Origin: Campylobacterales bacterium
GTDB lineage: Bacteria; Campylobacterota; Campylobacteria; Campylobacterales; Sulfurospirillaceae
NCBI GenBank assembly: GCA_016930915.1
Contig: JAFGFU010000030.1
Coordinates: forward strand, 1 to 54,369
Direction: 5' to 3'
DNA length: 54,369 nt
The translations under genes were made by a program, and so were the position numbers. The notes under the pieces are model-generated. The model was not told the DNA's origin and searched no databases. It saw only the letters and a program-made list of their open reading frames with translations. Below are positions 22,169 to 28,216 of this stretch, one piece after another. Numbering within the stretch: position 1 is the first letter of the stretch; every line of letters begins with the position of its first letter.

Positions 22169-23134
22169 TTAGCCTATGAAGGTTTGACCTGCATAGAGAA
22201 TGTAAAGTCTTAAAAAAACAACACCTACAAGTACCACCACAGAATTGAGCAAAATGTAACCTACACGGTACGCATGGTGTTTCAATGCTGTCACCGCAAT
22301 TAAAAGTGGTGTAGCAATACCAATGCCAATGACACCTACCCAAAATACATATGCCCACACACCTGTGGTTAAGGCTTGAATAGCAACGAGTGTTTTATCG
22401 CCTCCTTGAAAGTACATGCCTACAAAAAGTGCAAATAAAAGTAATAACTCCATTGGTACCACTCTTAGATCAAGCTCCAAAAGGTATTTGGCATTTTTTT
22501 GATTGACCTCTGATTTGAAAAAGAGAAGCCCAAACAAAATGGAAGCCGCAACGCCTGAAGAAAGCCCAGAGGCTAGGAACAAAATCGGCAACAATGGTGT
22601 GTTAAAAAGCGGATAACTGTACATTGCTGAGAGCAAAAAGCCTGTATAGATACCAATAATTACTGCAAACAAGAAAAGGGTTCGCTCTAACCACGCTGGA
22701 TTGTCGCCAATACTGTCAATAATGCCTTTGAAAGGTTTTAGAAGTCCTGCAAAAGGACCTGTTTCAAATAACCACGGTTTAAACTTAATCGCTGCGTAAA
22801 TAAAACTGAGCGGTGTATAGATAAAAAGCCCTAAAACACCCAATGTCATGACGGAACTAAAGTTATAATGAATCAACAATTTCCAAAAATGAAGGGGTCT
22901 TGTTAAGTCAAAAATCAATAAAAACAGACCCAAACAAATCGTCAGTGGCGCTAAGAGCGCACCTGCTTTAATCAAACCATCCCAAGGCGCTTTGTTATTG
23001 CCTTCTATCCATTTTACCATTAAAGAGGTCATAGCCGCACCCGCAGAGAGTCCTGCTAAAAAAAGATAAACCGCAATAGGCCAATGCCATATAAGTGTTG
23101 AATATTGCTCTAATGAGCCTGCGATGTGATTCAT
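22169..23134 (-). CDS. psrC: Polysulfide reductase membrane subunit PsrC (NrfD family)
   Basis: A 321-residue membrane quinol-oxidising subunit with about eight transmembrane segments. WHWPIAVYLFLAGLSAGAAM opens the protein and LYILYAGQTFIG closes it, as in NrfD/PsrC proteins. It anchors PsrAB to the outer face of the inner membrane and takes electrons from menaquinol. It overlaps psrB by four bases. A transcription terminator follows at 22131-22158, so it is the last gene of the operon. Confidence 0.92.
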   Translation of the reverse strand: MNHIAGSLEQYSTLIWHWPIAVYLFLAGLSAGAAMTSLMVKWIEGNNKAPWDGLIKAGALLAPLTICLGLFLLIFDLTRPLHFWKLLIHYNFSSVMTLGVLGLFIYTPLSFIYAAIKFKPWLFETGPFAGLLKPFKGIIDSIGDNPAWLERTLFLFAVIIGIYTGFLLSAMYSYPLFNTPLLPILFLASGLSSGVAASILFGLLFFKSEVNQKNAKYLLELDLRVVPMELLLLFALFVGMYFQGGDKTLVAIQALTTGVWAYVFWVGVIGIGIATPLLIAVTALKHHAYRVGYILLNSVVVLVGVVFLRLYILYAGQTFIG

Positions 23135-23703
23135 GATTTGATCCCTCCCTTATGGTTTGGTACGATAAACATTTTTGGATTGGTTCCAAGACGTTCTTTT
23201 TGTTGATACGTCACACGCTCTGAAAGCACGGTGTTAATCTTGCTTTGTGGATCATTAAGATCACCAAAGACTAACGCTTCTGTTGGACACACGGTCACAC
23301 ATGCAGGCTCTTCGCCTCTGCTTAAGCGTGATTCGTAACAGAAAGTACATTTGTTAGGCGCTTTGGTTACTGGGTCAACGTAACGTGCTTGATACGGACA
23401 TGCCGCCACACAGTACAAACATCCCACACACAAATCCACATCCACTAACACAATGCCATCTTCATTTTTAAACGAAGCGTGGGTTGGGCAGACATTGACA
23501 CACGGTGTATTTTCACAGTGGACACAGGATTGGCGGTGGTATTCATAACCTAGTGTACCATTGGGATATTCCTCAGGTTTAATCCATACTTGTAAACGAT
23601 AGACTGATTCTGGTAGTTGATTTTCAGACCGACACGCAACATTACAGGCTTGGCACCCAATACATAAATTGCTGTCGTGAATCATTGCATATTTTTTTGC
23701 CAT
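23131..23703 (-). CDS. psrB: Polysulfide reductase iron-sulfur subunit PsrB
   Basis: A 190-residue electron-transfer subunit with four [4Fe-4S] motifs: CIGCQACNVACRSE, CVHCENTPCVNVCP, CVGCLYCVAACPYQARY and CTFCYESR...CVTVCP. It links the molybdenum subunit PsrA to membrane PsrC. It starts 15 bases after psrA and overlaps psrC by four bases. It lacks its own signal, as expected for a partner carried through the Tat system with PsrA. Confidence 0.93.
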   Translation of the reverse strand: MAKKYAMIHDSNLCIGCQACNVACRSENQLPESVYRLQVWIKPEEYPNGTLGYEYHRQSCVHCENTPCVNVCPTHASFKNEDGIVLVDVDLCVGCLYCVAACPYQARYVDPVTKAPNKCTFCYESRLSRGEEPACVTVCPTEALVFGDLNDPQSKINTVLSERVTYQQKERLGTNPKMFIVPNHKGGIKS

Positions 23704-23718
23704 TGTTCTCTCCTCCCC

Positions 23719-26013
23719 TTACGCTTTTTTAACTTTAACGCCAGCAATATGCAGGTTCATACCGCAATTTTGCGATACATGTGGCGAATAAAGCGCATTA
23801 CTATTCACACCTTTGCCATAGGCACGTTTTAACTCTTTACTGACATGACCAAATCCAAAGTAAGCAAACACCGTATCTTCTCTGACCCCTTTGGTCACGA
23901 GGGCTTTGCCTTTTTGGCTGGAGTATTTGTTGTAAACCTCAATATTATCGCCATTTTTAATCCCTAAACGCCCTGCAGTTTTGGGGTGAATCCACACCGC
24001 AGCATCATCTAAAAGGTTATTGAGCCAAAGGTTATTTCCATTATGACCATTGGTACGAACGGCTGATTTTCCATTGATAAAATAGAGCTCATCGTTCTCT
24101 TTGTATTTGTACGGCTCATAACTCAGCGCTCCTTTTTTGGAAACCTCTTCAAGTTTAGGACTAAAGAGCTTGATTTTGTGAGGAAAATCTATCGTGCCTT
24201 CCTCATTCACATGCACCACCGCACTTGGGAATTTTTTGACAAAATTTGCGACACTTTTTTTATCTTGTAATAAAAGAGGCACACCAAAACTCTCACTACC
24301 ATTGGCTTTAAGTTTAGCAAGTAAATCAATATTATCGCCGACTTGTTGCAAACGATAATCTTCAATATCTTTGTAGGGGAAATAAGCACTTAAACCCATT
24401 TTTTCACCTAACTCTTTTGCCACACGCCAACCTGGACGTGCATCGCCTATGGGCTCAACGACTTTTTGTCGACCTACACCATAACTTGGGTTTTTACTAC
24501 CACTGGCGGTAAACTCTTCATCTCTCTCAAGGTAAGTTGTATCAGGAAGAACGACATCCGCAAACCATGCCGTGTCAGAGACTTGAATATCATGAACCAC
24601 AACCAAATCCATCGCTTGAAGTGCTTTAATGACATTTTCCATATTTGATTGTGTCATCACAGGGTTATTACGGGCAATAAACCAACCATGAATTTTATAA
24701 CCCACACCAGGAAGCTCTGTAAGTGCTGCATGCGGTATTAGGGTAACGATTCCAGCTCCTTTACTCGCTAAGAAAAACTCACTGTCTTTCTCACCGATTC
24801 TATCAATGCGAGGAACACTCACTTTTGGATAGGCAGGAATTTTTGGTTTTTTAAGTTTAGGCGCTTTGGGGTCACCCTCGCCAATAAACTGATTGTAAAA
24901 ATCCGCACTTTTACCCAAATAATATCCACCCTCTTTCTCCACCGCACCTACCAATGCGTTGACCATCATCATCGCACGGCGAAGCTCCAACTCTTGGGGG
25001 GTAAACGTTACACGGTGACCGTAGTCAAACACCGCTTTAGGAGCTGCTTTGGAAAACTCTCTGGCTAAGCGTTTAATCGTATCGGCAGGAATGTCACACT
25101 CAACCGCCATTTTTTCAGGGGTATAAGGCTCAACGGAAGCTTTTAACTCTTCAAATCCTTCACAATACTTCTCAACAAATTTTTTATCGTAAAGATTTTC
25201 ATGAATCAACGTATGAATAAACGCTAAAACAAACGCTAAATCATGCCCTGGTTTAATCGCATGCCATTCGGTTGATTTGGCTGCCATGGTTGAGAGTCTA
25301 GGCTCTAACGTGACGAGTTTTGCACCATGAGAAAGAGCGTCCATGTAGGCACGAGCATAAGAGATAACGATTCCTTCAAAAACGTTGTGACCCATGTTGA
25401 TGATGTATTTGGCTTTGGCAAAATCACGTCCAATGCTTCCATGATTGTACACATCTTTCGCCGCCATACCATACGCCAATGGACAGGTCGCCTCATGCCC
25501 AAAAAGATTGTGAGAACCATAGGCTTGAGCAAGGTTATGAAACCATGTTTTTGTCCAACCGCTACGTGCGGTAAAGGCAACGGTGTGTGCACCGTATTTT
25601 TGTTTGATTTCATCCAATTTTTTAGCAATGAAAGCGTATGCTTCGTCCCAACTGACCTCTTTCCACTTTCCTTCGCCTCGCTCACCCACACGCATAATCG
25701 GTTTTACCAAACGTTGTGGGTCATACAACTGATTAAACCCAGCACTCCCTCTTGCACACACTTTTCCACCACGGCTTTTATCCTTTGGATTTCCTCGAAT
25801 AAACATTCCTTTGCCATCTTCTACCCGTGCTTCAATGGTACAAGAACTCGTACACATTTCGCAAATGCTAGGGGTAAACTTGGTGTTGCCTTTGTACTGT
25901 TTTTTCACTTCATCCATGGCACCTAAGGTTCCAGGGATGCTCGAAAAACCAGCAACTGCAGCAGCTGTTGAAGAGAGCTTTAAGAAACCTCTTCGGCTAA
26001 GCATTTGAGTCAT
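23719..26013 (-). CDS. psrA: Polysulfide/thiosulfate reductase catalytic subunit PsrA
   Basis: A 764-residue molybdenum enzyme exported by the Tat pathway ([17 protein letters not shown]). The iron-sulfur motif is Cys51-x2-Cys54-x3-Cys58-x27-Cys86. Cys177 ([10 protein letters not shown]) is the likely molybdenum ligand. Other blocks are [34 protein letters not shown] and [13 protein letters not shown]. It reduces polysulfide or thiosulfate in the periplasm in PsrA/PhsA relatives, and sequence alone does not separate the two. It heads the psrABC operon. An 11-bp-period direct repeat at 26060-26080 lies just upstream of a -10, suggesting control by an OmpR-type regulator. Confidence 0.9.
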
Positions 26014-26195: not shown

Positions 26196-27869
26196 TTACA
26201 TGTAAGATGTTTGATGCGCTCTTTCTATCTTTTTATCGCTCCAAACCAGATACGGGTCACGGTAAGGATGGCTTACATGTAAAGAGTTTGAACCCTCCAA
26301 CACTCTGGCAATAACCCCTTTCATGTCACTTCCCACGTAGTGAACCATTTCAACCTCAAACCCTGCTAAAATCAAAGCATCATGCACGGCTTGAAAAGAC
26401 GTAGAAGCCACCAAAACACCTGTGGGTTTAAGATGCGTTTTTAAGAGCTTGATAAACTCTAAACTCACCAACGAAGCATTGGTATGCTCCACAAATGGGT
26501 CAAGAAAAATGACATCAAACTGCTCTTCTAGCTCCTGCACACCATAACGTGCTTCCTTATTGAGAAACTCGACCTTCACACCATGTTCTTCATAACGTTT
26601 ACATGTAAAAAGTGCTTCCAACATCTTTACATGTAAAGAATCTACTACAACCTTAGCACTCTGTTGAAGAAGCATTTTATCGTGTTCCATCGCCTTTACA
26701 TGTAAAGAAAAAGCAGAGCATTTTTGTGCGATTTTTATCGCTTCAAGCGTGTTGTATCCCATGCCAAAACCAATGTCCAAAAGGGCAACATCGCCTTGCA
26801 AAAGACGCTCTTTAAGATGCGAACCCTCGACAAAAAGTGTGCATGCTTGCGTGTATGCTCCAGCTTTAGGGTGATAATAATCTTTGTAACGAGCGCTGTA
26901 AAATGTTGTACTTCCATCGTTTAAAGCTATGGATTGGGGTATTTCATCACTTAAGGGAGGCTGTGCTTCTAGCAAATCGCCTTGTTTGATGCCACGATAG
27001 CGCATCGTTTGCACCACATATTCACCAAACTCTCCTTTTTCCATCTGCCACAAAGGCGCTATAAGCTCTTTTTTGGGAGTATCGGTTGCAAGGCGAATGA
27101 TGGGAATATGCGAGGGAATGATACGCAAAAGCGCCATCAAGGCTTCAGCGTATGCATACTCACTCAAAACCTGAAACGGCTCTGCCTCATACTCACGAGC
27201 CAACTGCGTCCCAGAGATAATATGCAAATGATGCAATTTAATCCCATCAATCCCAGCCTCCACTAAGCCTTTCACACTGGCTTCCCACATAGAAAAGCTC
27301 TCATTGGGCAACCCAATAATCAAATGCGCATACACCTTTAAACCCTTTACATGTAAACGCTCAATCGCTTCAAGCGAAGCGTGTGCACTATGCCCACGGT
27401 TGATGCGCTTTAAACTTGCATCGTGAAGACTCTGTACGCCAAGTTCCACCACCACATCCAAACGGGTATTAAGTTCTGCTAAATACTCTAGCGTTGCTTC
27501 ACTCAAACAATCAGGTCGTGTGCCAATGTGCAGCGCTCTGAAAGGGTAAAGACTCAAAAGCCTCTCGTACGCCTCTTTTTGTTTCAACAATGAGGCAAAC
27601 GTGCCTGTATAGGCTTGAATGTAAAGCGCAAAAGAGGTGGCTTTGTAGCGTTTTTTAGCAAATAAAATCGCCTTTTCTATCTGCTCTTCCACACTCTTAG
27701 CATCGGCAATTTGGGCGGCACGAGCACCGTGTTCTGGGCAAAAACTGCATCCACCCGTGCCATCTTTTTCACGGTTAGGACAGCCAAATTCTAAATTAAC
27801 AGGGATACTATAAAGCGCTTCGCCATAACGGCGTTTCATCGCTTCTTTATGGCTAAGATAAGGGAGCAT
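26196..27869 (-). CDS. Fusion: TIGR01212 radical SAM + MnmC-type methyltransferase
   Basis: A 557-residue two-domain protein. Residues about 1-310 are a YhcC/YtqA-type (TIGR01212) radical SAM enzyme: EFGCPNREKDGTGGCSFC gives cluster cysteines 30, 41 and 44, then YIQAYTGTFA, IGTRPDCLS, VELGVQSLHD and HLIIGLPNES. Residues about 325-540 are a SAM methyltransferase of MnmC (DUF752) type: FYSARYKDYYHPKAGA, FVEGSHLKERL, LLDIGFGMGYNTLEA, DVIFLDPF and LILAGFEVEMV. MnmC methyltransferases finish mnm5(s2)U in the wobble position of tRNA. A combined role in that modification is inferred. It overlaps the upstream YgbA-like gene by one base. It holds four exact TTTACATGTAAA copies and two near copies, the densest cluster in the window. 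Confidence 0.85.
   Translation of the reverse strand: MLPYLSHKEAMKRRYGEALYSIPVNLEFGCPNREKDGTGGCSFCPEHGARAAQIADAKSVEEQIEKAILFAKKRYKATSFALYIQAYTGTFASLLKQKEAYERLLSLYPFRALHIGTRPDCLSEATLEYLAELNTRLDVVVELGVQSLHDASLKRINRGHSAHASLEAIERLHVKGLKVYAHLIIGLPNESFSMWEASVKGLVEAGIDGIKLHHLHIISGTQLAREYEAEPFQVLSEYAYAEALMALLRIIPSHIPIIRLATDTPKKELIAPLWQMEKGEFGEYVVQTMRYRGIKQGDLLEAQPPLSDEIPQSIALNDGSTTFYSARYKDYYHPKAGAYTQACTLFVEGSHLKERLLQGDVALLDIGFGMGYNTLEAIKIAQKCSAFSLHVKAMEHDKMLLQQSAKVVVDSLHVKMLEALFTCKRYEEHGVKVEFLNKEARYGVQELEEQFDVIFLDPFVEHTNASLVSLEFIKLLKTHLKPTGVLVASTSFQAVHDALILAGFEVEMVHYVGSDMKGVIARVLEGSNSLHVSHPYRDPYLVWSDKKIERAHQTSYM
26598..26706. repeat. Cluster of three exact TTTACATGTAAA palindromes
   Basis: Exact copies at 26598-26609, 26626-26637 and 26695-26706 lie within 109 bases of one gene. 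A fourth is at 27346-27357, and near copies are at 26195 and 26272. They are read in different frames (FTCK at 26598; LHVK at 26626, 26695 and 27346), so protein sequence alone does not explain them. Confidence 0.9.
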
Positions 27870-28216
27870 TATTTGAAGAAGAGTTTGCGTATTTTGGTTA
27901 AACCTAGCTGCATGCCACTAAAGCTCATCACCTTTGACATCTTTTTCCACATCGACTTCTCATAGCAAGGATTGGGACATTTACGGCAACTGGGTTTATG
28001 CTCATGTGGACAATTTTTAAGCCTTCCATAGGCATATATGAGTAGTGTCTCACACTCTTCGCAAAGATGATAGGGCAGTTCGCACAAAGACGTTTCTTGA
28101 AAAGCAACCTCCAACACACCCTTTTTTTTGGGAACATCATGGTGTTTTTTATCGCAATGAAGTTGAATAAAACGGTGTAACGTCTGGCTATCGCTTTGAA
28201 GTTTTTCAGGAGTCAT
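27869..28216 (-). CDS. YgbA-like protein (nitrous oxide-stimulated promoter family)
   Basis: A 115-residue Cys-rich protein matching the YgbA_NO family: LCELPYHLCEECETLLIYAY, then RLKNCPHEHKPSCRKC and PNPCYE. At least eight cysteines are placed for metal or iron-sulfur binding. YgbA in enterobacteria is induced by nitric oxide under NsrR, but its biochemical job is not settled. It is the first gene of a two-gene operon with the radical SAM/methyltransferase fusion (one-base overlap). Confidence 0.85.
   Translation of the reverse strand: MTPEKLQSDSQTLHRFIQLHCDKKHHDVPKKKGVLEVAFQETSLCELPYHLCEECETLLIYAYGRLKNCPHEHKPSCRKCPNPCYEKSMWKKMSKVMSFSGMQLGLTKIRKLFFK

Follow-up and report, generated by a model that had tools for sequence, protein, structure and literature searches.

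A predicted two-domain tRNA wobble-uridine enzyme of Sulfurospirillum that joins a TIGR01212 radical SAM domain to an MnmC2-type methyltransferase

Results

The window, that is, the whole 54,369-nucleotide stretch of DNA analysed here, belongs to a genome that was assigned to Sulfurospirillum on the basis of named close relatives. It carries a gene in which a radical SAM domain is followed by a methyltransferase domain. The initial annotation had proposed such a one-gene fusion without giving a strand; a single open reading frame encoding both domains was indeed found, on the minus strand. The features of the locus are as follows.

26196..27869, minus strand: fusion gene, 557 aa, radical SAM (TIGR01212) plus MnmC2-type methyltransferase; single ORF with ATG start
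26970..27854, minus strand: radical SAM domain, residues 6-300 (TIGR01212; Radical_SAM and Radical_SAM_C), from profile matches and an Elp3 fold match
27738..27782, minus strand: cluster-binding cysteines C30, C41 and C44 (CPNREKDGTGGCSFC), invariant in 41 homologues
26913..26969, minus strand: inter-domain linker, residues 301-319, of varying length among homologues
26199..26912, minus strand: MnmC2/MnmD-type methyltransferase domain, residues 320-557 (Methyltransf_30), from profile and fold matches
26751..26771, minus strand: SAM-binding loop GFGMGYN, residues 367-373, from alignment
26493..26504, minus strand: LDPF, residues 456-459, with D457 aligned to Asp178 of E. coli MnmC
27869..28216, minus strand: YgbA-like protein (nitrous oxide-stimulated promoter family), immediately preceding the fusion gene in 14 of 14 genus genomes

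The YgbA-like gene, a member of an NO-response family that is kept upstream of the fusion gene in Sulfurospirillum, overlaps it in the window, its stop codon sharing the sequence TAATG with the start of the fusion gene. It is possible that an iron-sulfur tRNA enzyme is co-regulated with nitrosative stress. Downstream (22169-26013, minus strand) are three genes that, named by eye, resemble the membrane, ferredoxin and catalytic subunits of a molybdopterin oxidoreductase of the polysulfide/thiosulfate reductase type. A tRNA scan of the window found no tRNA. The palindrome TACATGTA, usually as TTTACATGTAAA, occurs 31 times in the window against 0.7 expected from dinucleotides, a 45-fold excess (for example at 26197, 26274, 26600, 26628, 26697, 27348 and 28267). 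It is often intragenic (the fusion gene holds six copies, which encode a repeated LHV(K)) and is dense in many Sulfurospirillum loci; none was present in the Arcobacter, Malaciobacter, Sulfurovum and Desulforhopalus loci examined. This motif appears to be a highly iterated palindrome of Sulfurospirillum.

Residues 6-300 of the fusion protein scored 251 bits against the profile TIGR01212 ('tRNA modification radical SAM protein MnmL/YtqA'), above its cut-off of 180, and Pfam Radical_SAM, Radical_SAM_C and Methyltransf_30 each exceeded their gathering scores in the protein. Every residue conserved across TIGR01212 is kept, including the three-cysteine cluster motif (C30-X10-C41-X2-C44), whose cysteines are invariant in all 41 homologous sequences; the family and motif read from this half at the outset were thus both recovered. 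Structure prediction of the two domains, which had been proposed as a check, gave a confident two-domain AlphaFold2 model (41 homologues, mean pLDDT 92.6, pTM 0.91). When the model was compared with solved structures, the N-terminal part matched Elp3 (Z 18-25) and the C-terminal part showed the MnmC2 fold, its best match being Aquifex MnmC2 (3vyw, Z 28.7 over 251 residues), followed by E. coli MnmC (3ps9, Z 21.8) and 2qy6 (Z 21.3). An identity as ordinary Elp3 was ruled out by the ELP3 profile score of 72 bits, far under the cut-off of 350, together with the absence of any GNAT/acetyltransferase domain in the fusion.

The methyltransferase half (residues 324-509) matched the MnmC2 profile NF033855 with 83 bits (83-86 across searches; E 2e-23), short of the cut-off of 136. 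Stand-alone MnmC2 of Campylobacterota likewise remains below it (112 bits), which indicates that this cut-off suits bifunctional MnmC. The GFGMGYN and DPF blocks noted in the initial annotation are present, and in the alignment Glu395 (replaced by Asp in some homologues) and Asp457 correspond to Glu101 and Asp178 of E. coli MnmC, which are acidic SAM contacts (PMC3648344). After the catalytic Asp, the Campylobacterota fusion members have S-L-V instead of the usual E-L-W. With dN/dS about 0.1 for the radical SAM domain and about 0.2 for the methyltransferase domain, both are under purifying selection.

Both halves occupy separate positions in their trees. The radical SAM domains of the fusions form, with unfused forms from Kiritimatiellota and Lentisphaerota, one deep clade (100/100, branch 0.78), apart from Bacillota MnmL (including the MnmM-linked L160 and L162), from YhcC and from the stand-alone type of Campylobacterota; a grouping with MnmM-linked MnmL, indicative of orthology, was not seen in this tree. 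The methyltransferase domains of the fusions likewise group together (92/99), on a long branch that is separate from both stand-alone and bifunctional MnmC2. The unfused relatives number eight and come from Kiritimatiellota, Lentisphaerota and one Paceibacterota MAG. In four of these eight loci (L120, L125, L126 and L127, the first at L120:4290-5897), from Kiritimatiellota/Lentisphaerota MAGs, the gene for the epoxyqueuosine reductase QueH lies directly before the radical SAM gene or is fused to it. Neither MnmC2 nor MnmM was detected in the genomes of L120, L125 and L126, the three searched. As QueH is itself a position-34 enzyme, its association with unfused members of the clade again points to tRNA position 34.

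A search for the same fusion, suggested by the initial annotation, found it in many genomes. In a survey of 298 genomes of the class (family names being our own reading of the groups), each of the 14 genomes from the window's genus carried it, as did two sister genera and, within a single Arcobacteraceae genus, four genomes. Among named records there were 33 full or near-full fused loci from at least five phyla: within Campylobacterota, the carriers are Sulfurospirillum, Malaciobacter halophilus, Arcobacter sp. CECT 8985, Sulfurovum and other Campylobacterota MAGs; beyond it, Desulforhopalus and Desulfogranum (Desulfobulbales), Kiritimatiellota, a Spirochaetia (Spirochaetota) and a Planctomycetota MAG. 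Its occurrence in unrelated phyla suggests that the fusion has been passed on horizontally. Both domain trees are compatible with a single fusion event followed by splitting, or with the opposite order of events.

The window's own genome encodes MnmE. Profile searches of it revealed no MnmC1-type FAD domain (the strongest hit was a partial, nucleotide-binding one of 35 residues with E 1.3e-6) and no MnmC2 besides the fusion, and the fusion protein itself has no C-terminal MnmC1 FAD oxidase domain. A separate complete MnmC elsewhere in the genome, which would have spoken against the original proposal, is therefore absent. The genome has no match to PF06962 and hence no MnmM (PF06962 / NF053511), so that a hidden MnmM was ruled out as the methyltransferase. 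The same holds throughout the genus for MnmC: none of the 14 genomes has an MnmC1 above the cut-off or an MnmC2 besides the fusion. A stand-alone TIGR01212 gene accompanies the fusion in 12 of the 14; that of the window's genome (L004:1486-2439, G000:C18) follows purF and belongs to the YhcC-side clade. The other two, G240 and G265 (the latter 99% complete and in a single contig), have no TIGR01212 protein besides the fusion. In three carriers from Kiritimatiellota and Spirochaetota (G306, G307 and G308) it is both the only TIGR01212 protein and the only MnmC2, with no MnmC1 at the cut-off. With no second TIGR01212 protein in these five genomes, no candidate other than the fusion was seen there for the two steps. 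The Arcobacteraceae carriers possess, in addition to the fusion, MnmC split into an MnmC1-like and an MnmC2 gene.

Across the class, Campylobacteraceae have bifunctional MnmC and almost throughout lack a full TIGR01212 match (the exception is G232), and in other families MnmC2 and MnmC1-like proteins are encoded by separate genes, usually together with a stand-alone TIGR01212 gene. Six genomes from one genus (G204, G219, G221, G225, G264 and G285) have both MnmC parts without TIGR01212, and 15 Helicobacteraceae genomes have TIGR01212 and MnmC2 with zero MnmC1 matches. In Helicobacteraceae loci L190, L191, L192 and L028 the gene order is purF, TIGR01212, MnmC2, with genes touching or overlapping and no MnmC1 over the cut-off in the genomes; the two functions are thus associated there independently of the fusion. 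From these patterns, radical SAM and FAD oxidase look like alternatives in several lineages of the class, not everywhere. In Bacillota loci MnmL adjoins MnmM, in agreement with the earlier statement that YtqA-type proteins of Bacillus sit beside a methyltransferase of the same pathway. A ThiO (thiamine glycine oxidase) identity was also considered for the FAD proteins of 375 aa in other Campylobacterota and was rejected (153-160 bits for MnmC1 against 65-75 for ThiO). A separate observation concerns G061, in which a stand-alone MnmC1-like FAD protein (L206:1346-2470, minus strand) was found and MnmC2, TIGR01212 and MnmM were undetected; nm5U is possibly the end product there.

Discussion

In E. 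coli MnmC, cmnm5 is oxidised to nm5 by the FAD domain, after which the methyltransferase domain adds the methyl group (PMC3648344, PMC9976899). Given that Sulfurospirillum has the fusion and lacks the MnmC flavin enzyme, the fusion most likely finishes the same wobble modification there without a flavin step. Family matches and gene context lead us to expect both steps of the fusion, and we consider it probable that it is a bifunctional tRNA wobble enzyme converting cmnm5(s2)U34 to nm5 through its radical SAM domain and on to mnm5 through its methyltransferase. MnmE/MnmG would form cmnm5(s2)U34, from which the N-terminal domain would strip the carboxymethyl group to leave nm5(s2)U34: a 5′-deoxyadenosyl radical may abstract a hydrogen from the glycine-derived CH2 (the carboxymethyl carbon), and the resulting radical may be oxidised to an imine and then hydrolysed. 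The C-terminal MnmC2-type domain would use SAM to convert nm5 to mnm5(s2)U34. The protein would thus resemble an E. coli MnmC with a radical SAM module for the flavin oxidase and with no need of oxygen. Substrate, product, step order and radical chemistry are all inferred. MnmL is reported by Jaroch et al. in 2024 to perform the cmnm5-to-nm5 step in Bacillus and Streptococcus, in an abstract said also to mention fusion proteins. A 2025 review, whose cited source we take to be Jaroch et al., presents MnmL as an alternative route, besides MnmC, to nm5s2U34 (PMC12548931).

Three observations would allow a division of labour or another product: the second TIGR01212 gene, which could perform the first step, the position of the radical SAM domain in a clade of its own, and the Arcobacteraceae that hold a split MnmC beside the fusion. 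The long branch of the methyltransferase domain and its score below the MnmC2 cut-off also count against the two-step reading. The stand-alone TIGR01212 gene after purF might be the organism's MnmL, with the fusion's methyltransferase completing mnm5 and its radical SAM domain having some other wobble-related job or serving only certain tRNAs or growth conditions. That 12 of the 14 genus genomes hold two TIGR01212 genes, that the stand-alone type is the neighbour of MnmC2 in Helicobacteraceae, that the fusion's domain lies in a clade of its own and that Arcobacteraceae hold the fusion together with split MnmC1-like and MnmC2 genes would all agree with such an arrangement; but G265 and G240 retain the fusion without the stand-alone gene and G306, G307 and G308 have the fusion alone, and we regard it as rather unlikely. 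That the fusion defines a radical SAM subfamily distinct from MnmL and YhcC, found in several phyla with its MnmC2-type partner, and either produces some U34 side chain different from mnm5 or demodifies tRNAs beyond the reach of MnmC1 and MnmL, seems unlikely to us; other products or targets of this kind would account for the Arcobacteraceae keeping the fusion beside split MnmC. Another reading, in which the radical SAM domain alters the U34 side chain differently and the methyltransferase completes a related, perhaps undescribed nucleoside rather than mnm5(s2)U, is in keeping with the depth of the radical SAM clade, with the divergent, long-branched methyltransferase and its S-L-V for E-L-W in Campylobacterota members, and with the full MnmC1/MnmC2 set beside the fusion in Arcobacteraceae. 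Nevertheless, the residues conserved throughout TIGR01212 are all kept, and in the genus and in the Kiritimatiellota/Spirochaetota carriers the fusion replaces MnmC rather than being added to it, and we regard this reading as quite improbable.

Two further explanations were considered. MnmEG of E. coli also yields nm5 directly from ammonium (PMC3936742), so methylation alone could yield mnm5, the methyltransferase being the only half that matters and the radical SAM half vestigial or structural. Yet it is this supposedly idle half that is the better conserved (dN/dS about 0.1 versus 0.2) and whose cluster cysteines never vary among the 41 homologues, and we judge this explanation very improbable indeed. 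An assembly or frameshift artefact joining two genes is hardly conceivable and was excluded, since the identical architecture recurs in many independent genomes (the 33 named loci of at least five phyla and the 14 of 14 genus genomes). The preferred reading remains the two-step enzyme acting from cmnm5(s2)U34 to mnm5(s2)U34.

Both individual activities are already known. In the literature searched, neither the MnmL::MnmC2 fusion with its present distribution nor its replacing MnmC in a genus was found; the MnmL paper of Jaroch et al., which lay outside the search, may list the fusion. Cho et al. (2023) pointed out that an orphan MnmC methyltransferase domain without the FAD domain implies that another cmnm5-to-nm5 enzyme is likely encoded (PMC9976899). 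A TIGR01212 radical SAM protein joined to or adjoining such a methyltransferase is a candidate for that missing enzyme in some of these organisms. The fusion also shows that a flavin oxidase and a radical SAM enzyme, unrelated in their chemistry, are each joined to the same kind of methyltransferase, the radical SAM version being presumably oxygen-independent and found in anaerobes and microaerophiles.

Among known systems, MnmL/YtqA of Bacillota, with its MnmM partner, shares with the fusion a profile score above the cut-off, the cysteine motif, the family-wide residues and the tie to an nm5(s2)U methyltransferase, but the methyltransferase of the fusion is of MnmC2 and not MnmM type and its radical SAM domain forms a separate deep clade. 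YhcC of E. coli is also of the TIGR01212 family, in another clade and in an organism that also has MnmC; to our knowledge, it has no established function. Elp3 is the nearest solved radical SAM fold and is likewise a radical SAM enzyme of U34 C5 side-chain chemistry, whereas the fusion lacks the acetyltransferase domain and would trim the side chain instead of building it as Elp3 does. Stand-alone MnmC2/MnmD (Aquifex aeolicus DUF752, 3vyw) resembles the C-terminal half in fold, in the SAM-binding acidic residues and in the Methyltransf_30 match; the fusion differs in scoring below the NCBIfam MnmC2 cut-off, in its long separate branch and in being joined to a radical SAM domain. In bifunctional MnmC of E. 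coli and Campylobacteraceae, a demodifying domain and an MnmC2 methyltransferase also share one polypeptide and, as we infer, the two steps are the same as in the fusion. The initial annotation had placed the radical SAM enzyme in the position of the FAD domain, which does not hold: E. coli MnmC has an N-terminal methyltransferase and a C-terminal FAD domain (PMC3648344), and the order in the fusion is the opposite. The fusion differs from bifunctional MnmC in having no FAD domain, in this reversed order and in a methyltransferase of independent lineage.
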